Shown: positions 28,338 through 64,000 of the stretch, piece after piece | Position numbering within the stretch: position 1 is the stretch's first letter | How the letters are laid out: every line of letters starts with the position of its first letter | Origin: Burkholderiales bacterium RIFCSPHIGHO2_01_FULL_63_240 | GTDB taxonomy: Bacteria; Pseudomonadota; Gammaproteobacteria; Burkholderiales; Burkholderiaceae_C | Length of the DNA: 64,000 nt | Assembly: GCA_001770725.1 (NCBI GenBank) | Contig: MERU01000001.1 | Span: forward strand, 248,001 to 312,000 | Direction of reading: 5' to 3' | Notes under the pieces: model-generated | Databases searched by the model: none | What the model saw: the letters and a program-made list of their open reading frames with translations, nothing else | What the model was told of the DNA's origin: nothing | Made by a program: the position numbers and the translations under genes

Positions 28338-29284
28338 AACTCCTGTTCGTCGCCGACCCGCTCGACACCTTCAAGACCCACAAGGACAGCACCTTCGCAA
28401 TGATGCGCGAAGCCGCCTCGCGCGGTCATGAGCTGTGGGCGTGCGAGCCACAGCAACTGGTGTGGCAGCGCGGCGGTGTGGTGACGGCGCGCGCCCAGCG
28501 CATCACCCTGACCGGCGACGCGCACGACTGGTACGACGAGGTCGAAGCCGCCGATCTGCCCCTGTGCCGCACCGACGCGGTGCTGATGCGCAAGGACCCG
28601 CCCTTCGACGCCGAGTACATCTACACCACCCACCTGCTGACCCAGGCCGAGCGCGAGGGCGCACGCGTCTTCAACAGCCCGGCGGCCCTGCGCGCCCACC
28701 CCGAAAAGCTCGCCATCCTGGAGTTCCCGCAGCACATCGCGCCCACCCTGGTCACGCGCGACATGGCCGCCGTGCGCGCGTTCCACGCCGAGCACCGCGA
28801 CGTCATCCTCAAGCCGCTGGACGGCATGGGTGGCATGGGCATCTTCCGCGTGAAGGACGATGGGCTGAACCTGGGCTCCATCGCCGAGACGCTGACGCAC
28901 GACGGCACGCAGACCATCATGGTGCAGGGCTTCCTGCCGGCCATCAGCGAAGGCGACAAGCGCGTGCTGCTGATCGACGGCGTGCCGGTGCCCTTCGCGC
29001 TGGCGCGCATCCCGCAGGGCGGCGAGGTGCGAGGCAACCTGGCGGCCGGCGGCAAGGGCGTGGCCCAGCCGCTGAGCGATGCCGACCGGGCGATCGCCGA
29101 GCACCTGGGGCCCATCCTGGCGGCGCGCGGCTTGCTGCTGGTGGGGCTGGACATCATCGGAGACCGCCTCACCGAGATCAACGTGACCAGCCCGACCTGC
29201 TTCCAGGAAATCACCGATCAGACCGGCTTCAACGTGGCGCAGCGATTCGTGGATGCGCTGGAGGGCAAGCTGACGGGCAAGTGA
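28334..29284 (+). CDS. gshB: Glutathione synthetase
   Basis: Second step of glutathione synthesis, joining gamma-glutamylcysteine and glycine. The 316-residue ATP-grasp enzyme begins MKLLFVADPLDTFKTHKDST, contains RKDPPFDAEYIYTTHLL and VILKPLDGMGGMGIFRV, and ends with LDIIGDRLTEINVTSPTC. Its length equals that of E. coli GshB. Its ATG overlaps the stop of the BenE-like gene; the open frame runs further upstream only as a shadow of that gene. In many Burkholderiales gshA and gshB are adjacent; here two transporters lie between them. Confidence 0.96.
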   Translation: MKLLFVADPLDTFKTHKDSTFAMMREAASRGHELWACEPQQLVWQRGGVVTARAQRITLTGDAHDWYDEVEAADLPLCRTDAVLMRKDPPFDAEYIYTTHLLTQAEREGARVFNSPAALRAHPEKLAILEFPQHIAPTLVTRDMAAVRAFHAEHRDVILKPLDGMGGMGIFRVKDDGLNLGSIAETLTHDGTQTIMVQGFLPAISEGDKRVLLIDGVPVPFALARIPQGGEVRGNLAAGGKGVAQPLSDADRAIAEHLGPILAARGLLLVGLDIIGDRLTEINVTSPTCFQEITDQTGFNVAQRFVDALEGKLTGK

Positions 29285-29322
29285 CGAATCAGCTCACCAC
29301 GCACCCAGCAGAAAAGCCAGTG

Positions 29323-30891
29323 TCACCAGTTCTCGTCAACCGCACCCTTGTCTTGGAGGACCGGTCGAGGCCCTGCCGTGGCCTCGGATATGGGTGCTCG
29401 AATCGCAGACTTGGGCGCAGCTTCTTTGGATGGGGATGCTCCCCCCTTGCCCACTGACTCAGGCGTGGTCGACACCTGCTTTCGCAGCTCAATGCCACCC
29501 GGCTTGAAAGGCTGCCCCAGGCTGGGCGCTCCATCTTCAAATGTGCCGTGAGAAGTCTTGGTCGCCACACGATCAATGCGCACAACTCCGATCGGCACCT
29601 CATTGCGCCCCAACGAACGCCCAGTCTGAGGATCTTTCAACTCATCACCCAACATGACTGCCTGCCAACGCTGCCCTTCTTTAAGCGACTCTCCACCTTG
29701 GCTCAGCACAACTTGATCGCCAGTCAGGGTCACGACAGACACTGGGAAAATTTCCGCCACAATGGCGCCACCTATTTGGCTCGACAGCGATTCGAGCATT
29801 TGGCTCACCATGCTTTTCCCATCCACAACGCTCGGCATGGTGCTGGGATCAGCATCAGCCAATTTGTGTTCAAAGCTGTCAGACATCACCACCTCGCCAG
29901 TCGCCGCGTTCAGCAGGCGCAAGGTGATGCGTCCGCGTCCAGAATACGAGACCAGCTCCCGATTCGACATGCGCAGCTTTTGCACATGGCGGGGGTACTC
30001 AAACTGCTCAATGGTTGGAACCAGAATCAGGTCGGCAGCCAGCCGCTGCCCCAGCTTCGCAGCATCTTGAACGCGAACGTTGCCGCCGTTGATGTGATCG
30101 ATCTCAGCCTGCATTTCTGACCCGAATTCGCGATCCAGCACGATGAATCGCTTGGTCTGAGTCAGGATGTCCGACAGTCGCCCGCGAACGGCTTGTGCAA
30201 CCTCGTCGGCAGACACCGCAGCATCGCCGACAGGGTAATTGCCCGTCAGCGTACGCGGAAGCGCCACGACGATCTTGGGCCGCCCCTGCTCATCCGGAGC
30301 TCGGTACTGCGCCACATCAACCTTGACGCGCACCTTCCAATAGCTCCGCATCTTTTTGTATTTGGCATCTGCTTCATAGGTGCTCGCCCCACGATTGACC
30401 TCCGCTCCGGTCAACCCAGCACCCGAATAACTGTAGCCACCGTCCGAGGCACGTACGCGCGCAGTCGCTTCCTCATCCAGTTTGTCAATTTCTTCCTGCG
30501 AAAGGACTTCAAAGCCCGCCACAGCCCCTTGACTGGCAGCGATGAGCTTTTGTGCGAAAGCCTCCGCGCGAGCAGAGCCGACGCCCTGCCCATCGACGGA
30601 CAGATCCAACCCCGCTCGCACACTTTGCATTTGGCTTGCAACGCGCACGCCATTCACCTGGGAGACGGCCATTTGCAAGGCGGCGAGCACCGCCAGCTCC
30701 TGTGTGCTTCCCACGGCTTCAACCTCGCGGCTCACCTTGGTGATGCCTCCGAAATCAGGCTGTCCACCAACGGAGACAGGGGCCGCCACAGACGCATCGC
30801 TCGCTGCGGCCGCCACAGCATCATCCTTCTTGCCGCAAGCGATCAGAAGACACACCGACAGCGCCACGACGCAAAGTCCAAGCTTTCGCAT
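29323..30891 (-). CDS. FlgT/CsgG-like three-domain outer-membrane lipoprotein
   Basis: A 522-residue lipoprotein: signal MRKLGLCVVALSVCLLIAC with a lipobox ending at Cys19. Three regions resemble flagellar FlgT. An N-terminal helix-strand domain includes LAVLAALQMAVSQVNGVRV. A middle TolB/CsgG-like domain is marked by RLSDILTQTKRFIVLDRE and LGQRLAADLILVPTIEQF. A C-terminal SH3-like domain is marked by QVVLSQGGESLKEGQRW and DPQTGRSLGRNEVPIGVVRI. It is the last gene of a four-gene minus-strand operon and has a strong GGGAGGA ribosome site. No flagellar or curli genes are nearby. Probable location is the inner leaflet of the outer membrane; the role is unknown. Confidence 0.75.
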   Translation of the reverse strand: MRKLGLCVVALSVCLLIACGKKDDAVAAAASDASVAAPVSVGGQPDFGGITKVSREVEAVGSTQELAVLAALQMAVSQVNGVRVASQMQSVRAGLDLSVDGQGVGSARAEAFAQKLIAASQGAVAGFEVLSQEEIDKLDEEATARVRASDGGYSYSGAGLTGAEVNRGASTYEADAKYKKMRSYWKVRVKVDVAQYRAPDEQGRPKIVVALPRTLTGNYPVGDAAVSADEVAQAVRGRLSDILTQTKRFIVLDREFGSEMQAEIDHINGGNVRVQDAAKLGQRLAADLILVPTIEQFEYPRHVQKLRMSNRELVSYSGRGRITLRLLNAATGEVVMSDSFEHKLADADPSTMPSVVDGKSMVSQMLESLSSQIGGAIVAEIFPVSVVTLTGDQVVLSQGGESLKEGQRWQAVMLGDELKDPQTGRSLGRNEVPIGVVRIDRVATKTSHGTFEDGAPSLGQPFKPGGIELRKQVSTTPESVGKGGASPSKEAAPKSAIRAPISEATAGPRPVLQDKGAVDENW

Positions 30892-30913
30892 TCAATCCTC
30901 CCAAATCATCCGT

Positions 30914-31531
30914 TTACAGCAAGCTGGTCGCATCCTTCGGGATTTCCACGCCGTTGTTCTTGCCGAACTCAACAGCGTTTTTCAGCACATCGGTCAAGTT
31001 TGTGACGCTGGTCGGCAGGTTCTTTGCCACATAAATGCCTGACTGGAGCTTGCCCATCTGAAGCGGAGAAACACCCGACAGGCTCGAAGAAAAGCCCTGC
31101 GCGTCCTTGCCCAGCGACATGTATTTCTTCACCCCCATGGCCAGCGAGAGCAGCCCCTTGGCATACGTCACCTTGGCCTCCCCATCTTTCAGCGCTGCAC
31201 CACTCTTGAGTGCGGTCGAGATGGCTGCGGCGTCAGCGCTGATGGCTTTGTCATTTGCCTCCACACTCTTCAGAGAAAGCGCGTCCGATGTGGCCGCTGC
31301 ATCCACAGCCTGAGCCTTGATGCCCAGCGCCGCAGCCAGGTGACCGTTGGCGGTCAGCACGTCCTTGCCCGCTGCAACGTAGTTACGAACCAGCGAATCC
31401 TGCTGAGTCCCAACATCTGCGCCAGCATTACCTGCGGGCTTGCTGCCACCCAACAAACCACCCAATTGCGCCATGCTCACAGCAGGTGCCGCCAAGGCGA
31501 TCACAGCGACAACAGTCCAAATCTTCTTCAT
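30914..31531 (-). CDS. Uncharacterised exported helical protein
   Basis: I do not recognise this 205-residue protein. It has a clean signal peptide (MKKIWTVVAVIALAAPAVSMA, cleaved before QLGG), then a Gly-rich stretch LGGLLGG. The rest is Ala/Lys/Asp-rich and predicted largely helical, followed by a C-terminal segment NLPTSVTNLTDVLKNAVEFG. No cysteines are visible in the mature part. The ribosome site AGGG is well placed. It sits 22 bp upstream of the FlgT/CsgG-like lipoprotein gene and 58 bp downstream of a FlgT-like gene, so it is very likely an accessory periplasmic component of the same system. Confidence 0.7.
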   Translation of the reverse strand: MKKIWTVVAVIALAAPAVSMAQLGGLLGGSKPAGNAGADVGTQQDSLVRNYVAAGKDVLTANGHLAAALGIKAQAVDAAATSDALSLKSVEANDKAISADAAAISTALKSGAALKDGEAKVTYAKGLLSLAMGVKKYMSLGKDAQGFSSSLSGVSPLQMGKLQSGIYVAKNLPTSVTNLTDVLKNAVEFGKNNGVEIPKDATSLL

Positions 31532-31589
31532 GATGTTTCCCTATCGTGGTTGCAAAAAAACCGCTCACTGCGGCACGTGAAACAAGAAA

Positions 31590-32774
31590 TCAACGGATGC
31601 CCATCGTTGTCATGCGGCTCGACAATTCCTGCGATGCGCTGCTGGCAGCAGACTTCAACGCATTGCCCCGTGCAACGCCTTCATTCGGACCGACACCGGA
31701 GTACGTCACAGGCCCCACAGCCGCTTTCGTGCGAGGAATGGCCTTGGTCACGTCCCAGACCTTGGCGTTGACGGTCACGTCCACGCGCATCAATCCTGTT
31801 TGTGGGTCTTTCGATGCCAGGCCGACGTCCAAGGTGCCCAGCGCCACATACGGCACGCCGTTGTCCTTCATGCTCGAAGCAATGGCCCGCAACGTTTTGG
31901 ACTGCAAGTCGTTGCCCGACTTGTAGTCAGCCTCAACATCCGCAACTTTGAATTTCTCAGACTCGACCATCGCAGCCTCCACCACGTCGTAGCCCGCTTG
32001 CGAGAACGCAGAAACGAAAACCTGATTCAAGTTCGCGCTCGGCAGCAAACGCCAGGTTGCCTCGCTCGCCTTGCGCGTCGTGCTGCCACCCGTTTCGGAC
32101 GTCACGACCGCCTTCTGGGAGGCTTCAAGGCTGGCGCTTTCGTCTTGTTGCTGCGATCTGGAACCATGGGTATCCACCTGCGCACGCTTGACGGACTCGC
32201 CTTCACTGGTTTTTTCTTTCAAGGAACTTATTTCTTGCCGCCTTGCTTGGGTGGACACCTGGGCAGATTCCTCAGATTTTTTGTAGACACGGTCGTCATA
32301 GCTTTTCTCGCTCGCCATCTGCCTAGACACGAAGACAAAACTCAGCATCGACTTTTCCGTCTCCGCCGCCCGACCCACAGCGGAATTTGCCTGCACAGCA
32401 TTGCGCAAATTGGCCACATTCAAAGAAACGCGAACGACAACGGTGTATTTCAGATCATTTTTATCGTCTTCCTCAGCGATCACCGTTGAGTCAAGGATGT
32501 ATCGCCCTTGGTTTTCCAAAACCTTGCTGCGAATGGCATCAAAGCTCGAAGACTCCGCCTGACCTGCCTCAGCGTAATACGCCTCAACCGCCTTGAGCAT
32601 GGCTTCTTGCTGCGCAATTTGCTTGGCTTTTGGCGGCGCCTCTTTTTTATCAAATACGCCCAGGTATTCCTTGTAATTCAACACATGCTGACCACGCGCC
32701 TGTTGAATTTGTGCACCAGCTTGCACACAAGCAAAAGAAACAAAAAACGCAACAAAATATTTAATTACTTGCAT
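31590..32774 (-). CDS. Exported protein with FlgT-N-like and FlgT/TolB-like domains
   Basis: A 394-residue protein with a signal peptide (KYFVAFFVSFACVQAGA, cleaved before QIQ). Residues about 30-135 look like a FlgT N-terminal domain: AMLKAVEAYYAEAG, NQGRYILDSTVIAEED, then KYTVVVRVSLNVANL. A polar, Ser/Glu/Lys-rich middle part (about 150-225) is probably flexible. The C-terminal half (LLPSANLNQVFVSAFSQAGY, LRAIASSMKDNGVPYVALG, DPQTGLMRVDVTVNAKVWD) resembles the TolB/FlgT middle domain. It overlaps the preceding gene by 10 bp. Assignments are by eye. Confidence 0.72.
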   Translation of the reverse strand: MQVIKYFVAFFVSFACVQAGAQIQQARGQHVLNYKEYLGVFDKKEAPPKAKQIAQQEAMLKAVEAYYAEAGQAESSSFDAIRSKVLENQGRYILDSTVIAEEDDKNDLKYTVVVRVSLNVANLRNAVQANSAVGRAAETEKSMLSFVFVSRQMASEKSYDDRVYKKSEESAQVSTQARRQEISSLKEKTSEGESVKRAQVDTHGSRSQQQDESASLEASQKAVVTSETGGSTTRKASEATWRLLPSANLNQVFVSAFSQAGYDVVEAAMVESEKFKVADVEADYKSGNDLQSKTLRAIASSMKDNGVPYVALGTLDVGLASKDPQTGLMRVDVTVNAKVWDVTKAIPRTKAAVGPVTYSGVGPNEGVARGNALKSAASSASQELSSRMTTMGIR

Positions 32775-33979
32775 TTGTTTATGATCCCTCTGGCCGTCAA
32801 AGCCTGCTGCTCCGCATCTTTAGCTGATGCGGCACCTTTGAACCACTTTTCATCGCCATGCCCACCCATGACAAGCGCCAATTTTGTGAACAACCCATTG
32901 ATGGCATCGTAGAAGTGCGGGAAATCATCGACATGTTTCTGGCTTGCGGGCACGACACGAGTCTCTCCATTCTTGATGGCTGTGTTCAGCCCTTTTTTCA
33001 AGGCATCCTCCATTCGCACCTGGGCATACGCCCCATAGACGAAACTGGTGGCGCCTCCAGGCACTTCGCTGAACTTGATCTTCTTAAGTCCAGTCAACTC
33101 CACATTGATTTCATAGTCAGGCACTGGAAGCTTCAAATCCCACACGGCACCGTCAGAAACGCGCATGGACATCACCCCTCCCACTGCGTAGCCCTTTGCG
33201 TACGGCACTACAGGCACTTCGGCTCGCGTGGATATCGCCTCGCTGACAATGTCAGCCAACCACATTTCGGCCGCACCAGATTCAGACTTGATATAAGGCG
33301 GCAGAAAATCCAGCACATCAGGGGAAATTTGCGCCGAAGTTACCTGCAAAAAACGCGGCACATAACTGGGTATCGAAGCCTTGGCGACACTGTCTACAAA
33401 TCTTGCTAACACACCCGGCTTTTCCGCAACCCCTTCATAGACCAGCCTCACACCCCCCCGAATTTCATCTTCGCTCGGAGCATGATCCAGCGCATCGACA
33501 TAGGCGAAGCTCAGCGGATACGCGCGAACCACATTCATCGATTTGAAATCGAAGAACATGGCCTGCGCCCGGATCAGAACCAGTAATTTATGCAACTGCC
33601 CGAATTGCTCGATCACCACCGTTTCAGAGCCAACTACCAAAGCCACAGCTAAGGCCTGATCCCGCCCCTTTAGCTCCTGTATCTGATCCACGATCCTCAA
33701 GCTGGTTGGGTTAGCGCTCTTCAACGCCTGGGACAACTTCTGAAAAATAGGAGTACCAGACTCTTCGAGTGATCGAACGTAACGATGAGAATACGGGAAT
33801 CGGGCATTCATGCCAGATTCGGTCCCAGCATATGCAAAACCAGCAAAAGCCACATCGACAGGTTGTTGAGCCCATGCAGCGCTGAAATAAAACCCGCTCA
33901 GCAAACAAGCTGCAAAAAAGCGGCCCATCCGTCGAGCGAAAAAAAATGCGGTTTGCCGGGCCGATGATGCTGGCACCAT
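32765..33979 (-). CDS. Uncharacterised exported protein, first gene of the FlgT/CsgG-like operon
   Basis: A 404-residue exported protein I do not recognise. The start at 33979 (MVPASSARQTAFFF) was chosen because it has an AGGGAGA ribosome site at 5-6 bp; a GTG/ATG further upstream (33997) lacks one, and Met at 33928 is an alternative. A hydrophobic signal, MGRFFAACLLSGFYFSAAWA, ends before QQPVDVAFAGFAYAG. The mature part is mixed alpha/beta, with VALVVGSETVVIEQF, LLVLIRAQAMFFDF and GGATSFVYGAYAQVRMEDALKK-type segments. It overlaps the next gene by 10 bp, so the operon is translationally coupled. Its base composition is visibly lower in GC than flanking housekeeping genes. Confidence 0.7.
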   Translation of the reverse strand: MVPASSARQTAFFFARRMGRFFAACLLSGFYFSAAWAQQPVDVAFAGFAYAGTESGMNARFPYSHRYVRSLEESGTPIFQKLSQALKSANPTSLRIVDQIQELKGRDQALAVALVVGSETVVIEQFGQLHKLLVLIRAQAMFFDFKSMNVVRAYPLSFAYVDALDHAPSEDEIRGGVRLVYEGVAEKPGVLARFVDSVAKASIPSYVPRFLQVTSAQISPDVLDFLPPYIKSESGAAEMWLADIVSEAISTRAEVPVVPYAKGYAVGGVMSMRVSDGAVWDLKLPVPDYEINVELTGLKKIKFSEVPGGATSFVYGAYAQVRMEDALKKGLNTAIKNGETRVVPASQKHVDDFPHFYDAINGLFTKLALVMGGHGDEKWFKGAASAKDAEQQALTARGIINKCK

Positions 33980-34179
33980 GCACTTCTCCCTTGCCATTAG
34001 AATTTTTTCAGTTCGGCATCATGAATCATGCAGTTACATGGCGCAAGTGGATGTAACGCGACAAACACCCATTTGCGTGGTCTTCTTCATGCAGCGCAGC
34101 AGATCGCCACACGCACGTTCCCTCGCTACATCGAGCTCAAACAGCGACAATACCGGGTTGCCCCTCACCCGGATCCCCC

Positions 34180-55048: not shown

Positions 55049-56032
55049 ATGATCATCGTCACCGGCGCCACCGGCTTCATCGGCTCCAACATCGTCGCCG
55101 ACCTCAACGCTCGCGGGCGCACCGACCTGCTGCTGGTCGACGACCTGGGCACGCAGGGCAAGTGGAAGAACATCGCCAAGCGACGCTTCCTCGACCTGGT
55201 GGATTACAACGACCTCGATGGCCTGCTGGCCCGACTCAAGCAGCCCGCCGACGCCGTCTTCCACATGGGTGCCAACTCGTCGACCACGTCCACCGATGGC
55301 GACGAGATCCTGCGTGTGAACCTGCACGCGACCATGGCCTGGTGGAAGTGGTGCACCGAGACCGGCACACCCTTCATCTACGCGTCGTCGGCCGCCACCT
55401 ATGGCGATGGCGACCAGGGCTTCGACGACGACCAGAGCCCCGAAGCACTCGACAAGCTCGCCCCGCTGAACCTGTACGGCTGGTCCAAGCACCAGTTCGA
55501 CAAGTGGGCCGTGGAGCGCGCAGCCGAGGGCAAGGCTCCGCCGCAATGGGCCGGTCTGAAGTTCTTCAACGTCTACGGCCCCAACGAATACCACAAGGGC
55601 GACATGCGCAGCCTGGTGGCCAAGAACACCGCGCTCATCGCTCGGGGCGAGACCATTCGCCTGTTCAAGTCGCACAAGGACGGCTATGTTGACGGCGGAC
55701 AACTGCGCGACTTCGTCTACGTGAAAGACTGCTGTGCTGTGATGATGTGGTTGCTGGGCAACCCGCAGGTCAGCGGCGTCTTCAACCTCGGCACCGGCCA
55801 GGCTCGCAGCTTCGTCGACTTGATGCAGGCCATCGGCACCGCCCTGGGCAAGCCAGTGCACATCGAGTACGTGGACATGCCGGAGAGCATCCGGCCGAAT
55901 TACCAGTACTTCACGCAAGCGCGGATGGACAAGCTTCGTGCAGCTGGGTTTGACGCGCCCTTCCACACGCTGGAGGCCGGTGTGGCGGACTACGTTGGGC
56001 AATACCTGACCCGCGATGACATCTATCGCTGA
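55049..56032 (+). CDS. hldD: ADP-L-glycero-D-manno-heptose 6-epimerase
   Basis: Final step of ADP-heptose synthesis. The 327-residue short-chain dehydrogenase has the N-terminal NAD(P) motif VTGATGFIGSNIVADLNARG, then HMGANSSTT and SSAATYG. The catalytic pair Tyr/Lys is in LYGWSKHQFDKWA, followed by FFNVYGPNEYHKG. An AGAGGA ribosome site precedes the ATG, 22 bp after msbA. With rfaE1 and the rfaE2-gmhB fusion it covers three of the four enzyme functions of the pathway here; gmhA is not in view. Confidence 0.96.
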   Translation: MIIVTGATGFIGSNIVADLNARGRTDLLLVDDLGTQGKWKNIAKRRFLDLVDYNDLDGLLARLKQPADAVFHMGANSSTTSTDGDEILRVNLHATMAWWKWCTETGTPFIYASSAATYGDGDQGFDDDQSPEALDKLAPLNLYGWSKHQFDKWAVERAAEGKAPPQWAGLKFFNVYGPNEYHKGDMRSLVAKNTALIARGETIRLFKSHKDGYVDGGQLRDFVYVKDCCAVMMWLLGNPQVSGVFNLGTGQARSFVDLMQAIGTALGKPVHIEYVDMPESIRPNYQYFTQARMDKLRAAGFDAPFHTLEAGVADYVGQYLTRDDIYR

Positions 56033-56038
56033 AAGCAA

Positions 56039-56884
56039 ATGCTGAAGCCCCCCCTGCCAGCAGACGCTCGCACCGCTCTTGCGCAGGTCACGCTCTGCTG
56101 CATTGACACTAGGAGCCCCGAGCTGGCTCTCTACGCCATGCGCCGCTGCATGCAGCACCTGTCGTTCGCCCGCTGCGTGCTCATCAGCTCGACACAAGCA
56201 CGGCACCTTGATCTGGACGGCATTGACCTGGTCGAAATCGCTCCCCTCAAGTCCATCGATGACTACTCAGAATTCGTCATCAAACGGTTGGCCGATCAAG
56301 TGCAGACATCGCACGTGCTGCTCATCCAATGGGATGGCTTTGTGCGCGATGCGCGAATGTGGTCAGACGACTTCTTAAAATTTGATTACATCGGTGCGCC
56401 ATGGACCAGTGGGGCGCTGGCCAACCAAGTGGGCAATGGTGGGTTCACGCTGCGTTCGCGCAAGCTTTTACAAGCGCTGCAAAGCAATGACTACGCTGCG
56501 CACAACCCGGAAGACGTGTGCATCGCGGTAACGCATCGGGCCCGGCTCGAGCGTGAGCACCACATCCGCTTTGCAGATGCACAGACCGCCCGCCGCTTCT
56601 CATGCGAGCGCGGCCCTTGGCGGCCCGCTTTTGGCTTTCACGCCGTTTTCAACTTGCCGCATGTGCTTAGCAGCACCGAAATGGCGCAGTTTTCAGCAGC
56701 CTTGCCCGCCCACCTGACCGCATCGAGCGACGCCAGACATCTCATCCGCGATCTGATCCGCCAAGGTGATTTCGAATCGGCTCAGACGCTGCTCAGGAAA
56801 CGCACCCAGCATCTCGGTTGGCACGCGGACGCATGGCGCCAGAGACTGCAACTGGCATGGGCCCGGCTACACCGAATGAGTTGA
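56039..56884 (+). CDS. DUF5672 family protein, probable glycosyltransferase
   Basis: A 281-residue protein with the DUF5672 pattern: VTLCCIDTRSPELALYAMRR at the N-terminus, then HVLLIQWDGFVRDARMWSDDFLKFDYIGAPW, and VGNGGFTLRSRKLLQAL. This family is often found in surface polysaccharide loci and is thought to be a glycosyltransferase. It lies 6 bp after hldD, so probably in the same transcript, and marks the point where GC content starts to fall. The function is inferred from family context. Confidence 0.82.
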   Translation: MLKPPLPADARTALAQVTLCCIDTRSPELALYAMRRCMQHLSFARCVLISSTQARHLDLDGIDLVEIAPLKSIDDYSEFVIKRLADQVQTSHVLLIQWDGFVRDARMWSDDFLKFDYIGAPWTSGALANQVGNGGFTLRSRKLLQALQSNDYAAHNPEDVCIAVTHRARLEREHHIRFADAQTARRFSCERGPWRPAFGFHAVFNLPHVLSSTEMAQFSAALPAHLTASSDARHLIRDLIRQGDFESAQTLLRKRTQHLGWHADAWRQRLQLAWARLHRMS

Positions 56885-56932
56885 GGACGGCGAGCGCCCG
56901 CCTCTGCGACCGATATTTGCCATCACACCAGC

Positions 56933-58021
56933 ATGTCAACACATCTCCGACACATCGGCATCGGCTTTGGCGACATCAGGCACTTTCATGACGGCCTGGG
57001 CGAATTTTCCAGGCAGCATGGTCTTCACATCGCAGCATTTGCGAAAACGTGGCGCCAGGATTTTGGCCTGCAAGTGCATTTGCACCTGCCTGGAAAGTGG
57101 CATGGCATCTTCGGCGATGACGTTTCCTACTTGTCGACTGAGTCGGGCCAACAGCACTTTCACTGGCAACCGCACCGCTTCGATGTGTGGCACCAGTTGC
57201 ACCAGCACATTCGACATCGCGCACCATTGGGCACGCGCCATTGCATCACGACCTTGCATGACCTCAACATGGTCTACGCAAAGCAAGGATTCTCTCGCTG
57301 GCGAGCCTTGAGAAAACAAGTCCGGCTCCTGAAACGCGCCGATGAAATAATTTGCATCAGTGACCATGTGCTCTCGGACTTGAAGCAGCACACGCGACTC
57401 AAGACGCCTGCGGTCCGCATTCACAACGGTGTGAATTCTCTGGCCGCCGAACCACAGACGCCCGTCAGCGAGCTCGAAGATCAACCCTACCTGTTCCACA
57501 TTGGGCGGATGACACCCAACAAGAACGTGGAATGCCTGATCGAATTGGCCGAACACTGGCCCGACCAGCAATTTGTCTTTGCCGGCCCAAGGAGTGGTTA
57601 CACCGAAGGGTTCCAACACGAGGCCAGTGCACGCGGACTTGCCAACGTCAGATTCTTGTTCGATGTCAGCGAATCACAAAAAGCGTGGCTGTACGCTCAT
57701 TGCGAAGCGCTGCTCATGCCTTCCCTGACCGAGGGATTTGGCTTGCCCGCAATAGAAGCCATGTATTTCGGCAGGCCCGTCTTTCTCTCTGCGCTCACCA
57801 GTCTTCCGGAAATTGGTGGAGAGACCGCGAGATATTTCCACAATTTCGAACCCGAATCCATGAGGCAGACCATCCAGTCAGGCTTGCGAGACATGCGAGA
57901 GCCGGGCAGTGAAGACCGCATCAAAGCGTGGGCCCAGAACTTCACTTGGGACAACTGTATCCGGCGCTACATCTCGCGCTACGCAAAGGCTCTCGATCTT
58001 CCGTTGTGGGGCGCGCAGTGA
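56933..58021 (+). CDS. Glycosyltransferase family 4 protein
   Basis: A 362-residue GT-B enzyme with FGDIRHFHDGLGEFSRQ at the start, LHDLNMVYAKQGFSRWR, and LFHIGRMTPNKNVECLIEL. The intact E-x7-E motif is TEGFGLPAIEAMYFGRPVF, followed by TSLPEIGGETARYF. It resembles mannosyltransferases of surface polysaccharide clusters. It is the last plus-strand gene before the convergent FkbM gene, separated by about 90 bp in which no terminator is obvious. Confidence 0.88.
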   Translation: MSTHLRHIGIGFGDIRHFHDGLGEFSRQHGLHIAAFAKTWRQDFGLQVHLHLPGKWHGIFGDDVSYLSTESGQQHFHWQPHRFDVWHQLHQHIRHRAPLGTRHCITTLHDLNMVYAKQGFSRWRALRKQVRLLKRADEIICISDHVLSDLKQHTRLKTPAVRIHNGVNSLAAEPQTPVSELEDQPYLFHIGRMTPNKNVECLIELAEHWPDQQFVFAGPRSGYTEGFQHEASARGLANVRFLFDVSESQKAWLYAHCEALLMPSLTEGFGLPAIEAMYFGRPVFLSALTSLPEIGGETARYFHNFEPESMRQTIQSGLRDMREPGSEDRIKAWAQNFTWDNCIRRYISRYAKALDLPLWGAQ

Positions 58022-58110
58022 GCACTACAGAGGATCTGCCGCGATGGTCACCGGCGGCACCGGGCATTGACAGTGCCTACAAATGACACGCTCTGGCGCG
58101 TTGTCACGAC

Positions 58111-58947
58111 TCAGACGGCAACAGACTTCGGAACGTACCAGCCGTCAAAGTCAGACACGGACCTGAAGACCTGCTTGTACCCATTGCGGTCCATGAGGTT
58201 CTTGATCCGCTCTTCTTCTTGTGGAAGATGGTGCTCCACGCACATCAGGCCGAAACGATATGAATCGAAAGGAAAGTTTTCCAGGATCTTGAATTCAGAC
58301 CCTTCGACATCAATTGACATGAAATCAATGAACTGAGGCGCATTGTATTTCTTCAACATGTCATACAACGATATGGTTTCGACTTGGTACAGGGCTTCCC
58401 GATCGATGTGCATGTGATCGGCTTCAGCCGAAGATTGAAGCTGGTTCTGATCCGCCTCATAAAACGGGATCTTCTCGCCAGAGCGGGACCACACGCACAT
58501 CGTCTCCAGGTGGCAAGACCTGTTTTTCTTCAGGCCTTCATGCCACTCCCGGCCCGGTTCAGCCAAGATACCCGTCCAGCCGAAAGATTTTTCCAGTACA
58601 TATGTGTTGCTGATCCTGACCCCATCGCAGGCACCGAACTCAACAAAATAGCCGCCTTTTTTGCCGCGAGCGAGAAGCAGACCAAGAATATCTTGATAGA
58701 ACTGCGATTCTGTTTTCCTGACCTGGTTGGCCACAGGCTCAACGGACCCCCCATCCTCGAATTTGGACAGGCGCCCGATCAATTCGATCAACTCGAACAA
58801 ACGAGCACGTTGCGCGATCATTTGGCGCACCGAAAAAGCATGAAATTCTTTTTCCTTGTTGATGGCACGAATTTTTTTCCGCAACCTCAGAGGGGACCAC
58901 GTATTGAGGAATTTTTCAATGCGGGAGGCAATGTAATCAAAAATCAT
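58111..58947 (-). CDS. FkbM family methyltransferase
   Basis: A 278-residue protein with an N-terminal helical extension of about 80 residues followed by a FkbM SAM domain: FVEFGACDGVRISNTYVLEK, GWTGILAEPGREWHEGLKKN, then FIDFMSIDVEGSEFKILENF. These enzymes O-methylate sugars or other small molecules. Last gene of a minus-strand set that starts beyond the right edge. Clearly lower GC content than the housekeeping genes to the left, consistent with a variable polysaccharide locus. Confidence 0.87.
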   Translation of the reverse strand: MIFDYIASRIEKFLNTWSPLRLRKKIRAINKEKEFHAFSVRQMIAQRARLFELIELIGRLSKFEDGGSVEPVANQVRKTESQFYQDILGLLLARGKKGGYFVEFGACDGVRISNTYVLEKSFGWTGILAEPGREWHEGLKKNRSCHLETMCVWSRSGEKIPFYEADQNQLQSSAEADHMHIDREALYQVETISLYDMLKKYNAPQFIDFMSIDVEGSEFKILENFPFDSYRFGLMCVEHHLPQEEERIKNLMDRNGYKQVFRSVSDFDGWYVPKSVAV

Positions 58948-59035
58948 AACAAACTCTTCACTGAATTATTGATAAGATATGAAATCTTCGAGCAAGCTTC
59001 TTCACCAGACGAGAAGCACCTGAACGGGCGCATGC

Positions 59036-60154
59036 CTAGACCTTGCGCTTGAAAACCGTCTCGATATCGACCAGGTCTTGTGCATCGACGCCACTATGGA
59101 AAGGCAGGCACAGGACCTGAGATTTCACCTCCGAAACATAGGGCACCTGCCTCACGGAATGGATCTGGCAATCTCGATACGGAAGGAAATCGGTACAGAT
59201 CGGATGGAAATATTTTCTCGCGAAAATACCCAAACTTTTCAACTCTTCGTACACCTGATCACGATTCCGCCCAAATTTCGCCTGATCGATCACCACAGGA
59301 AAATATTGCTCTGAACTCGTCACGCCATTTTGTTTCGGCTGAAGTGCCACACCAGGCACATCGCCCAGGATTTCAAAATAATTCTGCCGCAGCGCAGCCC
59401 GCACTTGCATTTCACCTGTAATGCCTCGCATGTTCAGGATTCCTATGGCAGACTGAACTTCATTCAGTTTTCCATTGATACCGACGGAGACAACCTCTTC
59501 CTCGTTTTTAATGCCGAAGTTCCGAAGAAAATAAATCGACTCTTGGTCCTCGCGGCGAGGCGTGGCAATTAGCCCCCCCTCCAAGGTATTGAACAGCTTG
59601 GTTGCGTGAAAAGAAAACACCGATGCATCACCGTAAGAGGCGATTGACCGGCCGTTTACCTTGGTTCCAAACGCGTGCGCGGCATCGTAGATCAGCTTGA
59701 GTCCGCGGCGATCGGCCACGTCTTGCAGGGCGTCCAACTCACACACAGTCCCGTACACATGGACACCGAGGATGGCCGAAGTTTTAGGCGTGATGGCCTT
59801 TTCAACTGCCGCTGGATCGAGAGTCAAGGTATCAGGCAATACATCGGCAAAAACTGGGGTCAAACCGTTCCAGCTGATTGCATGCGCTGTTGCAGCAAAT
59901 GTCAACGGCGTCGTGATCACTTCGCTGCCTTCCGGCAAGTCGAAAAGCTTGAGCGCAACCAACAAAGCTATCGTGCCATTGTTGAACAGCATCGCAGTTG
60001 GGACATCAAGATGCTCCCGCATCTGTTGTTCCAGTTGCTGATGCAATGGCCCACCATTGGTCAAAACCTTCGTGCGCCATATTTCAGCAAGCAACGCGTT
60101 CAGGTCACCCAGTTCGGGCAGCAGCGGTTGAGTAACGTAAAGAGGCCTGGACAT
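59036..60154 (-). CDS. DegT/DnrJ/EryC1/StrS family sugar aminotransferase
   Basis: A 372-residue PLP enzyme of fold type I that transfers an amino group to a nucleotide keto-sugar. Typical features: LTNGGPLHQQLEQQMREHL, NNGTIALLVALKLFDLPEG, TPLTFAATAHAISWNGLTPVF, DAAHAFGTK, and the PLP lysine in SFHATKLFNTLEGG. The C-terminal part has FARKYFHPICTDFLPY. It is likely to make a 3- or 4-amino-sugar precursor, but the position cannot be told. It lies next to the ATP-grasp and Gfo/Idh genes on the same strand. Confidence 0.92.
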   Translation of the reverse strand: MSRPLYVTQPLLPELGDLNALLAEIWRTKVLTNGGPLHQQLEQQMREHLDVPTAMLFNNGTIALLVALKLFDLPEGSEVITTPLTFAATAHAISWNGLTPVFADVLPDTLTLDPAAVEKAITPKTSAILGVHVYGTVCELDALQDVADRRGLKLIYDAAHAFGTKVNGRSIASYGDASVFSFHATKLFNTLEGGLIATPRREDQESIYFLRNFGIKNEEEVVSVGINGKLNEVQSAIGILNMRGITGEMQVRAALRQNYFEILGDVPGVALQPKQNGVTSSEQYFPVVIDQAKFGRNRDQVYEELKSLGIFARKYFHPICTDFLPYRDCQIHSVRQVPYVSEVKSQVLCLPFHSGVDAQDLVDIETVFKRKV

Positions 60155-60237
60155 GAGCTATAGATGCCCTCACTGGTAAAGCAGAATTTACAAACCCTGG
60201 GGAGGGCATGAAAAACGGAAGAAAATTTCAGTTCAGC

Positions 60238-61377
60238 TCAAACAACAAAATATGCTGAGCGATTCATGAATCTCTCAAATGCTTGCTCCATGCCGTTTTG
60301 AGAGGCATAAGCCGAAAATAGCACGCCAGCACGATTGCCCTGTCGAGGCAGCAGCGACTCACCAACAGGCAGCAAAGGAAAGAAGGCCTTGATGGGCTCA
60401 GGCTGAATGAACCGCAGGCCATTGTAGACCCCGGCAGAATCAGCTGTTACGGTGTGCCTGAGCACGTGGCAGACCTGCTGCGGGGTGTTGGCCATCGAAT
60501 CGCCCACGAAAAAGGATGCGTAATGATCCGCATAGGGAATTCCCGTGCTGAACTCAATCAGGAGCGAGTAGAGATCACCAGGGCAACGCCGAGTCAGCTC
60601 GACCAAGCACGGCTTTCCATCGCTGACGATGAACTGGGTATGCAGCAGGCCATCGGTCAATTGCAAATGCAACGCCAACCTCTGTAGGCCACCCTCAAGC
60701 TGAACTTGCGCCTCGCCTGCGAAGTCGACATCGACATAGCTGGTATCGACAGCGTAAGGATTGACAGATGAACCCTCCCGCACATAGAACGCCTGCGCAA
60801 TCTTGCCTTGGATAAAAAAGGCGCTGCAACTGTACAAAAAGCCTTCACAAAATGTTTCGATGACACACTGTCCGCTGCGACTCTCCGCCGACCCCAAGGC
60901 TAACGCAGAGCGAAGACCCGCCAAATCCGTGCCATCGAACACGGAGATGCCTCTTCCGCTGAAGGCATCGACCGGCTTGCAGATGAATTTGCCTTCAAGA
61001 GGGAATGAATCAGCACCGACCACCTGGGGGGCTGGCAGATCAAGCTCCACGCACATCCGTCGAAATGCCGCCTTGTCAGAAAGCTTTGTATTGATTTCCA
61101 AGGCATCACCAAGGAACCATGGCTTACCCAACTTGACACAGGTTTCAAGAGAAACATCGGTGCATCCCGGCACGACGCGATCAATGCCCAGCCGGATCAA
61201 ATGGTCACGGACCTCGTCCACCTTGCTGTAGTCCTGCTTGACCCAGCGCTGACCAGCCTTTGCGGCCAGCACATCTGACGCTCGATTACCAATCACCCAC
61301 ACCTCATGGCCGGACCGAATCAGCGCTTGGTAAATTGGTTCGGCCGCAAATGCGGCGTCCATCAACAGGATCTTCAT
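60238..61377 (-). CDS. ATP-grasp enzyme of the polysaccharide locus
   Basis: A 379-residue ATP-grasp protein, carbamoyl-phosphate-synthase-like. The N-terminal domain begins MKILLMDAAFAAEPIYQAL. The nucleotide lid holds GKFICKPVDAFSGRGISVF, and the metal-binding end PCLVELTRRCPGDLYSLLIEF. Such enzymes ligate a carboxylate to an amine. Here the neighbours are an aminotransferase and a dehydrogenase, so it may acylate an amino-sugar with an amino acid. The ATG at 61377 follows a GAGG ribosome site; a TTG five codons upstream is possible. Confidence 0.78.
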   Translation of the reverse strand: MKILLMDAAFAAEPIYQALIRSGHEVWVIGNRASDVLAAKAGQRWVKQDYSKVDEVRDHLIRLGIDRVVPGCTDVSLETCVKLGKPWFLGDALEINTKLSDKAAFRRMCVELDLPAPQVVGADSFPLEGKFICKPVDAFSGRGISVFDGTDLAGLRSALALGSAESRSGQCVIETFCEGFLYSCSAFFIQGKIAQAFYVREGSSVNPYAVDTSYVDVDFAGEAQVQLEGGLQRLALHLQLTDGLLHTQFIVSDGKPCLVELTRRCPGDLYSLLIEFSTGIPYADHYASFFVGDSMANTPQQVCHVLRHTVTADSAGVYNGLRFIQPEPIKAFFPLLPVGESLLPRQGNRAGVLFSAYASQNGMEQAFERFMNRSAYFVV

Positions 61378-61392
61378 TCGATCAAACCTCAA

Positions 61393-62448
61393 TCAGACTT
61401 CCACCAAAACCGGCTCTCGTTGCGCAATCGATTTTCCAATTGCCTCAATCACCTGCATGTTGGCATAGCCATCGCGCAATGAAACCAGCGGAGCTGCTTT
61501 TCCGCGTACCACTTCCAGGAAGTGCTCTAACTGCAGCGCCAATGGATCATGTGGTGAAAACGACAACCGTCCGGAATCAAACGGCTGCCACCACGAAGGA
61601 TCGGCGCCAGGCGCGTATGTGCGCGTCACCATGCTGGGAAAGTCCAACGATCCTCGCGTGCCCGAAAAATGGTAGCAATTATCATTCGGATAGTGTGGAT
61701 ATGCAGGATTTTCCCCACTCGTCATTTCCCAACTCTTGCTGCTGGCCGCCGTATCAGACAATATAAACGTCCCCAACGCGCCACTGCAAAACTCAATGGA
61801 AATCGCCACGGTGTCTTCAACTTCGAACTGGCGGACCCGATTGCTAGCCAGGGCGTAGATACTTCTAATTTCACCGCAGAAGTGGCGCATCAATCCGACC
61901 TCGTGGATGAGGTTGATCAAGATGGGGCCTCCGCCTTTCTTGGTACGCCACGCGCCGTCCAAGAAATAATGTGCGGGCTTATAAAAAAGTGCGGCGCCCT
62001 GCATGCAAACCATACGGCCAAACGAGTCCGAGCGCAAGAAACTGTCGGCCGCCCTCAACAACGGACTGTAAGTACGGTGATGCCCAACCAGGGCGGCCAC
62101 GCCTCGTGCCTCGGCTTCCCGCACGAGCACAGCAGCATCATCCAGAGAGTCTGTCAGTGGCTTTTCAACCAACACTGGCAGCCCTCGGTGTATGCATGTC
62201 AGGGCCTGCTCGCTGTGAAATGCATTGGGAGAGCTGATGATCACTGCATCAACGGCGCCGGATTCGCATGCGGCTTCGATGCTTTGATGCAAGGAAACGC
62301 CGCAACGATGCGAATAAGCAATGTTCTCCTGAGTGGCCGGCCCGACCATCGCCACCAGAACACAGTCAGCGCGCCCCAGGATGAGTTCGACGTGCTTCTT
62401 GCCGATCAAGCCTGGGCCGCAAACGACGAGACGAGTTTTATCCGGCAC
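61393..62448 (-). CDS. Gfo/Idh/MocA family oxidoreductase
   Basis: A 351-residue NAD(P)-dependent sugar dehydrogenase with a Rossmann start RLVVCGPGLIGKKHVELI, the family motif LPVLVEKPLTDSLDDA, and the C-terminal sugar-binding domain. The GTG at 62448 was chosen because GGAGG lies exactly five bases before it and only one base separates it from the upstream stop; a TTG further upstream is less likely. It is typical of enzymes oxidising the sugar ring of nucleotide sugars before transamination. Confidence 0.85.
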   Translation of the reverse strand: MPDKTRLVVCGPGLIGKKHVELILGRADCVLVAMVGPATQENIAYSHRCGVSLHQSIEAACESGAVDAVIISSPNAFHSEQALTCIHRGLPVLVEKPLTDSLDDAAVLVREAEARGVAALVGHHRTYSPLLRAADSFLRSDSFGRMVCMQGAALFYKPAHYFLDGAWRTKKGGGPILINLIHEVGLMRHFCGEIRSIYALASNRVRQFEVEDTVAISIEFCSGALGTFILSDTAASSKSWEMTSGENPAYPHYPNDNCYHFSGTRGSLDFPSMVTRTYAPGADPSWWQPFDSGRLSFSPHDPLALQLEHFLEVVRGKAAPLVSLRDGYANMQVIEAIGKSIAQREPVLVEV

Positions 62449-62449
62449 T

Positions 62450-63655
62450 TCAACCTCCGCTGGGGAAAAGCTCAAATTCTCGCAAAGAAAGTTTCTTCAC
62501 CCGCTCAACATAATCACCGAATGAATACAGACTATCATACTCCGCGGCAAACCTTTTATTCAGATCCGTGTACGCGGCCTGATTACCAGCCAACTTGCGC
62601 ATGACATCACAAATCCGATTCACCATCTCTTCGCCGCTCCCGAATATGTTTTCATAGTCTTTGAAATGCGGAGACGGGAAGAAGTCGTCATTGTACACAG
62701 CGAACCCGACCCCCCCTTGCAATGTGGGCTGAGCCAAGTATCCATCAAAGCCTTCGCCAAACGTGATCGAGAACATACACCGGGTTGCCAAGTCCATGAA
62801 TCGATCAAAGGTGATGTCTTTGATCTCAATCAGCTTGTAATCAGGGAGTTCGGCAGCAATTTTTGCCAGGCATCGCTCCTTGTGCTCGGCCTTGTCGAGG
62901 GAGTAAATGATCAGCTTCTCTTTGTCGGCAAATCCACACCCAGGATACGAACTGAGGTCGGTGTAAGCAGGCAACAAGAGCGTGGGAATGCCGTATTTGT
63001 TCGCCATGTCCTGACTGAAATAGGCATGATGCGCGACCGATTGAGTCACCTCTTTCGCCAAATTCTTCAAGGGGCTCAACTGGGCTGCTTCAGGCATCAG
63101 TTGAATGTTCTGGTTCAGGATGTTCACAAAAACAGTCCGGCCAGAGAGGTATGCCAATTCCTGGCGACTCAAATCATCGCAAAAGTGTGCTGTCGCGTAC
63201 TCCGGAATTTGCAGATAAAGCTCCTCGACATCTGTGCACTGCAACAGTTGAGAAAACCGATACACATTCTCCGGATTCCGAAAATTGGTGTTCCTGAAAT
63301 ATGTTTCCCCTTCCCCATTGGGGCGGGTCATCAACACAACCTCATACCCATGAAACCGCTTCAAACGCCGCAACTGATCGGCGATGGAGAATATTGAAAA
63401 AATCCCCCCACTCATGGCATTGTGCTCGGGCACAAGCAAAACCAGCAGCCTTTTGGCGGACTTTACTTCAGCAGGAAACGTGTGCTGCTGAATGAGTTTG
63501 TTGACTTCGATGTTGGTGTGGTGTGTATCGACAGAATCATCTTCCCTGGTCGCACCCATGATTCTACGCCGAATCTGCCTGCGCTCAAACTTCGTCCTGC
63601 CCCTGAATGCAGCGACATTTGCATAAATCTTCCTGACCTTCAGGCTTAAGCTCAT
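62450..63655 (-). CDS. Probable glycosyltransferase (GT-B like)
   Basis: A 401-residue protein I can only place loosely. After a basic N-terminal stretch of about 55 residues comes a GT-B-like first domain (RLLVLLVPEHNAMSGGIFSIFSIADQLRRLK). A second domain follows with KLIIYSLDKAEHKERCLAKIAAELPDYKLIEI and FSITFGEGFDGYLAQPTLQGGVGFAVYND. The FGEGFDGYLAQP part resembles the acceptor loop of retaining transferases. It is followed one base later by the Gfo/Idh gene. Likely a surface-sugar transferase; substrate unknown. Confidence 0.7.
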   Translation of the reverse strand: MSLSLKVRKIYANVAAFRGRTKFERRQIRRRIMGATREDDSVDTHHTNIEVNKLIQQHTFPAEVKSAKRLLVLLVPEHNAMSGGIFSIFSIADQLRRLKRFHGYEVVLMTRPNGEGETYFRNTNFRNPENVYRFSQLLQCTDVEELYLQIPEYATAHFCDDLSRQELAYLSGRTVFVNILNQNIQLMPEAAQLSPLKNLAKEVTQSVAHHAYFSQDMANKYGIPTLLLPAYTDLSSYPGCGFADKEKLIIYSLDKAEHKERCLAKIAAELPDYKLIEIKDITFDRFMDLATRCMFSITFGEGFDGYLAQPTLQGGVGFAVYNDDFFPSPHFKDYENIFGSGEEMVNRICDVMRKLAGNQAAYTDLNKRFAAEYDSLYSFGDYVERVKKLSLREFELFPSGG

Positions 63656-63697
63656 CTATCCCCCTGATCAACACAAATTGAAGTCGAATTCATCACA

Positions 63698-64000
63698 TCA
63701 CCAAGACGCCTTTCCCCGCTTTTTTAGCTTATAACGAATCCATCTCAGACCAGGGCGTGGCCACATATTTGCCTCAGGAGAGCGCCCTTCTTTGGGCGTT
63801 GCAAAAATCACGGTTTCATCGCCATGGACCGTGCTATGTTGAAGACTGAACTCGTACCCAAGACCAAGGGAATCAATGAATTGAGGGATTTCGTAAAAAT
63901 CGATCAGCTTGTGATAAACGCAAATCGCAAGATTAGGGCGATACTTGACGATGCTGCGTTTTGCACCTCGCAACGCCATCATCTCTGCGCCTTCAATGTC
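63698..64000 (-). CDS. FkbM family methyltransferase, C-terminal part (runs off the window)
   Basis: Only about 100 C-terminal residues are inside the window; the gene continues past the right edge. It opens with the motif DIEGAEMMALRGAK typical of the FkbM SAM domain, then IVKYRPNLAICVYHKLIDFYEIPQF and a basic C-terminus. It is a second FkbM gene, different from the one at 58111. It probably O-methylates a sugar in the same locus. Confidence 0.8.
   Translation of the reverse strand, partial: DIEGAEMMALRGAKRSIVKYRPNLAICVYHKLIDFYEIPQFIDSLGLGYEFSLQHSTVHGDETVIFATPKEGRSPEANMWPRPGLRWIRYKLKKRGKASW

Follow-up and report, generated by a model that had tools for sequence, protein, structure and literature searches.

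CsgG, the secretion channel of curli, crosses the membrane by means of beta hairpins. LptE, TolB and LpoB belong to the same fold class, and none of the three is known for large rings. The H ring of Vibrio is given in a passage of PMC7693769 as consisting of FlgT, FlgO and FlgP; two conserved cysteines are ascribed to FlgT in a passage of PMC4960245, and part of PMC10897342 describes PqiC and PelC as ring-forming proteins. Here we analyse a module of four genes, which we call A, B, C and D, with similarities to FlgT and CsgG. It lies in a 64,000-nucleotide stretch of a Burkholderiales genome; this whole stretch is referred to below as the window. All four genes are on the minus strand, between gshB and uup, and the features of the locus are as follows.

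29277..34137, no strand assigned: inserted segment between gshB and uup, including the last 8 bases of gshB and without counterpart at the corresponding place in three genomes of the same genus.
32765..33928, minus strand: gene A, an exported protein of 387 amino acids with an LptE/CsgG/FlgT-like fold (open reading frame, 20-row alignment, AlphaFold, Foldseek).
32765..32774, minus strand: overlap of A and B by 10 bases, exactly this length in 16 of 19 loci examined.
31590..32774, minus strand: gene B, an exported protein of 394 amino acids with FlgT-N-like and TolB_N/CsgG-like domains and a low-confidence linker (open reading frame, model, Foldseek, profile).
30914..31531, minus strand: gene C, an exported, alanine-rich protein of 205 amino acids (open reading frame, conserved in a 13-row alignment).
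29323..30891, minus strand: gene D, a three-region FlgT-like lipoprotein of 522 amino acids (open reading frame, Pfam CsgG, hhalign against FlgT).

The four coupled minus-strand reading frames proposed in a preliminary description of this DNA are all present, with gaps of 58 bases between B and C and 22 bases between C and D. Its expectation of signal peptides throughout and of a lipoprotein at the end of the operon agrees with what is visible by eye, namely N termini resembling signal peptides in A, B and C and a lipobox, LLIAC, with its cysteine at residue 19 of D. The lengths it gave for B, C and D (394, 205 and 522 residues) hold, whereas its 404 residues for A probably do not. The list of open reading frames offers two longer versions of A, of 404 residues from the ATG at 33979 and of 410 residues from an ATG further upstream; the start is probably the internal ATG at 33928, 17 codons downstream of 33979, because the signal peptide, again judged by eye, then stands directly at the N terminus. 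Several relatives of gene A have starts about 10 codons longer. We regard the four genes as real because all four are kept in 21 other loci and because comparison with the closest relative, L018, gives low dN/dS values for B (0.07), C (0.15) and D (0.10); for A, dS is saturated. A promoter scan found 0 against 1.9 expected, and a terminator scan found 6 against 5.7 expected, which is the chance level.

The complete set of four genes occurs at 22 distinct loci (the window, L018-L023, L026-L030, L033, L036, L068-L073, L075 and L076), and in 21 of these the order is A-B-C-D. The exception is a Caballeronia plasmid on which D comes first, followed by two other genes and then by A-B-C, with identities of 20-28%. 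Where the overlap of A and B departs from 10 bases (the remaining three of the 19 loci), it measures 13 bases, 4 bases and, in one case, a value affected by a chosen start that is too short. Pairwise identities over 19 loci correlate closely among A, B and C (r 0.92-0.97); the correlations with D are 0.67-0.83 and become 0.84-0.95 once L075 is omitted. In L075, from genus g305, D is 62-65% identical to its counterparts in seven window-type loci, against 28-39% for A, B and C. The picture for L030 is similar (L030 and L076 also come from g305). From these identities, an exchange of D between lineages of the module seems to have taken place in that genus.

Several loci carry variants of the module. 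The version in Cupriavidus metallidurans CH34, an environmental carrier, has diverged, with identities of 29-41%. A divergent operon in G748 (L074:8675-14835) consists of B, D, two small exported proteins, a 446-residue protein and a 443-residue protein; the last of these is A-like by eye and matches the Caballeronia A weakly (E 0.009), and against the Caballeronia operon as a whole three proteins match clearly and a fourth weakly. In G696 the module is intact on contig 13, and contig 3 (L078, approximately 5.3-10.3 kb of the locus) holds a further copy that is broken and distributed over several reading frames. A fifth gene overlaps the stop codon of D at L028:11061-11537 and at L070:11519-11989, and the L028 protein matches LEA_2. 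On an Azospirillum plasmid (L034:5771-10774), a relative of D follows genes for YcfL, LpoB and DUF6844, and a very large gene with Ig-like domains lies nearby on the opposite strand. Profiles detected no homologue of A, B or C in the Azospirillum plasmid group; the equation of the DUF6844 protein with B, and of a 441-residue Azospirillum protein with A, found no support in single-sequence tests, which are weak.

The surroundings of the module vary from locus to locus. In the window the neighbours are gshB and uup (both named in the preliminary description and identified by eye), BenE and K_trans, and no flagellar or curli genes were seen near the module, as the preliminary description had noted. 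Across 24 loci, each neighbouring family is present in three at most; reading frames here follow from a crude GC3 rule, and one locus, L019, has no flank. A flagellar, curli or defence operon was rejected on the basis of neighbourhood, there being no constant neighbour, and the PADLOC models of anti-phage defence gave 0 families at E values up to 0.1 for all four proteins.

Carriers of the module are sporadic. With a profile of B, 15 appeared among 399 family genomes and 6 among 398 genomes of the phylum, and the search with C gave 2 of 369 genomes of the class; a collection of phages contained no relative of B. The search with D returned 11 of 150 family genomes, 7 of them credible. Those rejected were G105 and G145, whose matches are periplasmic binding lipoproteins, and G041 and G122, whose matches are limited to model positions 1-57. 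Five other sampled genomes of the window's own genus gave no match to the module. In three of the five, gshB is directly followed by uup, an empty site; in the other two (G525 and G607) the distance between gshB and uup is approximately 2.8 and 15 kb. Against the nearest empty-site genome, homology ends at about 29276 and resumes at 34138, with approximately 4.86 kb in place of 136 bp, and the four genes fill this insert. Because gshB directly precedes uup in three genomes of the same genus, the segment of about 4.86 kb is read as an insertion; on this comparison of sequences, the module is inserted between gshB and uup in the lineage of the window. Inspection of the ends of the insert gave no convincing terminal repeats.

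The low G+C content of the module, remarked on in the preliminary description, is borne out at 0.558 against 0.656 for the remaining window. As proof of transfer we rejected it: the module lies below its flanks in 11 of 17 loci, with a mean difference of only -0.02, and G+C alone is weak evidence because a second block of the window, at 56-64 kb, is equally low. The empty site is the better evidence of transfer. The second block (positions 56000-64000, G+C 0.51-0.58) holds genes for a glycosyltransferase, an FkbM methyltransferase, a DegT/DnrJ aminotransferase and a GFO/IDH/MocA oxidoreductase and looks like a surface-polysaccharide cluster.

The relationship to FlgT is clearest for D. A profile of 21 relatives of D was compared by hhalign with a profile of 22 FlgT_C-bearing proteins from genomes of the same class; these were 22 of 25 fetched, with L100, L102 and L117 omitted as near copies, and their status as FlgT rests on FlgT_C alone. 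The two profiles align with a probability of 97.8% and an E value of 7.9e-13 over D residues 61-473, taking in the N, middle and C regions, which bears out the proposal that the 522-residue protein has all three FlgT-type regions. D thus looks like a distant, full-length homologue of FlgT. In Pfam, D reaches 39.9 bits for CsgG, above the cut-off of 20.8, the only credible Pfam match among the four proteins; the similarity to FlgT and CsgG that profile searches had been meant from the outset to probe is therefore present for both families. For FlgT_M, D scores 19.2 bits against a cut-off of 31.2, and in G000 no FlgT_C match appeared at E values up to 0.001. D also falls below the LpoB cut-offs (18.6 against 22.3 bits in Pfam and 13.7 against 110.55 in NCBIfam), and NCBIfam as a whole gave nothing above cut-off for the four proteins. 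Two columns of the FlgT alignment are cysteine in at least 20 of 22 rows; the only cysteines of D are at residues 7, 14 and 19, in the signal and lipobox region, and the FlgT pair is absent. D is not classed as FlgT, because it stays below the curated scores, has no counterpart of the cysteine pair and lacks support for a flagellar link.

The lipobox cysteine of D is invariant in a 12-row alignment. Two of three distant relatives (L074 and L034) contain no cysteine at all and therefore no lipobox, so the lipid anchor is not a general feature. At the position following the lipidated cysteine, the relatives of D have G, D, N or S, and this variation makes the membrane in which D resides uncertain. 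The C-terminal region of D matches TsaP at an E value of 3.1e-4, with the motif ELKDPQTGRSLG... within the aligned part, and a Pfam scan gave no LysM match in D.

The model of B, built by AlphaFold from a 19-row alignment, is of medium quality (pLDDT 68, pTM 0.47), with ordered domains at approximately 23-130 and 238-390 joined by the linker of low confidence. Searched against the PDB with Foldseek, it has its top match in FlgT (3w1e, E 7.2e-6), followed by the Vibrio LPHT ring (8z5n, E 7.6e-6), the only two below 1e-5; further matches are CT253 (8e-4), TolB, GNA1162, PelC and, more weakly, CsgG. With FlgT this model reaches only low TM-scores (0.25-0.33), which a different placement of the two domains would lead one to expect. 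The FlgT profile matches B in the N region only (78%, E 1.8e-5). The assignment of the first two FlgT regions to B accords with this N-domain match and with FlgT as the top PDB match of the model.

Protein A gave a better model (18-row alignment, pLDDT 87.4, pTM 0.85). Its Foldseek matches, at E values of 1e-4 to 7e-3, are LptE-type lipoproteins, CsgG, FlgT and the PqiC-like XCC0632, whose fold is that of a widespread superfamily, and the order of strands and helices in the model suggests two units of the LptE/CsgG-type fold. No sequence repeat was detected between the halves of A, the FlgT profile gave no match to A (0.25%), and no scanned member of the A or B families had a credible match to a Pfam model. 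The fold common to A, B and D is structural only, because profile comparison finds the three mutually unrelated. For C, Pfam scans of 13 members gave no credible family; the weak matches were to Biopterin_H (E 0.0091, in 1 of 13 and below the cut-off) and Adhesin_P1_N (best E 0.0084, in 4 of 13), and the FlgT profile gave 1.3%, no match. Of the two components that the preliminary description had left without a known fold, the larger, A, now has one in its model, and C stands as described.

The best explanation of the locus, to which as a whole we assign a probability of roughly 0.5, is that the module encodes a ring or collar in the periplasm that is self-contained, non-flagellar and held to the envelope through the lipid on D, and that it has moved as a unit between Burkholderiaceae and related bacteria, where its neighbours are unrelated genes. 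We infer the ring from the relatives FlgT, CsgG, PelC and PqiC, and the membrane location of D and the role of C are likewise matters of inference. All four proteins appear to be exported and are made together, and known proteins of this plan, those of the H ring and the PqiC and PelC rings, assemble into rings in or under the outer membrane. D would supply the lipid-anchored body, with three domains as in FlgT and the middle one CsgG/TolB-like, B may form a second FlgT-like layer from its N and middle domains, and A could add a further layer on the LptE/CsgG fold. Our guess for C is an exported partner, plug or cargo of the assembly.

An unlikely alternative, for all that D and B are FlgT-like, is an accessory ring of the flagellum: the betaproteobacterial equivalent of the Vibrio H ring, with its genes apart from the flagellar cluster. 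It draws further support from the flagellar P-ring protein FlgI, which is found in 18 of 19 carriers tested (8 of 8 and 10 of 11 in two sets; the 19 include G142, with only a fragment of D at a contig end, and G748, with the divergent set). In the window's genome FlgI is on another contig, and in the 18 carriers it is on another contig or more than 1.3 Mb away, although in draft genomes two contigs may still be close neighbours, particularly where they are short, as in G421 and G142; where module and FlgI share a contig (G091 and G667), they are approximately 1.4 and at least 2.5 Mb apart. No FlgI match was found in G597, a genome 100% complete in 30 contigs with the four genes intact (L073), or in its genus mate G018. 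FlgI occurs in 15 of the 16 carriers within the family and in 106 of the 143 non-carriers, an enrichment that is not significant (Fisher p 0.12) but still leaves statistical room for a flagellar link. Most flagellated relatives do without the module, since FlgI is present in 113 of 150 sampled family genomes and B in only 15 of 399, and the lipobox and missing cysteine pair of D also speak against a flagellar part. Because FlgI lies elsewhere in 18 carriers and was not found in G597, the module is not positionally linked or fixed to flagella, with thin support, one genome, on the FlgI-negative side. The proposal of an assembly apart from flagella is in keeping with these results, and in relatives the operon was not found fixed beside flagellar genes.

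We consider it equally improbable that D forms a CsgG-type outer-membrane secretion pore, for which C would be the cargo while A and B serve as adaptors in the periplasm. The Pfam score of the window's D would favour such a pore, as would matches to CsgG at E values up to 0.1 in all 12 members of the first D alignment, the lipobox, and the encoding of a small, conserved, exported C alongside. The pore is less likely because the candidate hairpin stretch of D, placed by alignment with what we take to be the position of the first membrane hairpin of CsgG, is charged and, in three relatives of D, shorter by 6-14 residues, unlike the membrane hairpin that a pore requires. In addition, three distant relatives of D that were scanned gave no CsgG match, the match to FlgT extends over a larger part of D than that to CsgG, and no curli genes were seen near the module.

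It is quite unlikely that the module resembles LpoB or TsaP in its action, regulating or bracing peptidoglycan synthesis, or some other machine of the envelope (for instance the type IV pilus), from the periplasm: the sub-threshold LpoB similarity, the C-terminal TsaP match and the Azospirillum relative of D encoded with LpoB, YcfL and DUF6844 suggest it, but the LpoB score stays under its cut-off, D has no LysM, and no neighbouring family exceeds 3 of 24 loci.

Returning to the self-contained ring or collar, we advance only tentatively the more specific possibility of a horizontally mobile, flagellum-free envelope nanomachine in which a D-anchored FlgT-family ring, stacked from A and B, moves or anchors C. 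If true, this would suggest that the Vibrio H ring is part of an older and broader class of envelope rings that was recruited by the flagellum. FlgT is known as a flagellar part, and a mobile four-gene unit with a full-length relative of FlgT, present also in a genome in which FlgI was not detected, would mean that the H-ring fold is not confined to the flagellum. The module would also offer a minimal, genetically separable system for studying the formation and function of such rings, and the A and B families gain fold assignments and a conserved partnership. Among the literature matches listed, from a coverage that excludes most subscription journals, none describes the four-gene system. FlgT itself is known; what is new here is probably an FlgT-type system that is non-flagellar and includes three other proteins.

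Comparison with described systems places the module as follows. LpoB, YcfL and DUF6844 of the Azospirillum plasmid operon share a gene group with a relative of D, and no A, B or C was detected there. TsaP, which is associated with the type IV pilus secretin, resembles D in the C-terminal region only, and D is without its LysM. The outer-membrane lipoproteins PelC, PqiC and LptE share their fold class with the model of A; A differs in having no lipobox and no detected sequence similarity to them, and its longer model contains two sets of long strands. CsgG resembles D, a lipoprotein above the Pfam cut-off, and is matched by the model of A, whereas D has extra N and C domains, its hairpin region is charged and variable, and curli partners were not seen nearby. 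FlgT of the H ring of the Vibrio/Aeromonas polar flagellum resembles D over the N, middle and C regions and B by top fold match and N profile, and the model of A also matches it. In contrast to FlgT, D carries a lipobox, lacks the cysteine pair, falls below FlgT_M and has no FlgT_C match, and the module stands apart from flagellar genes, with D accompanied by A, B and C.
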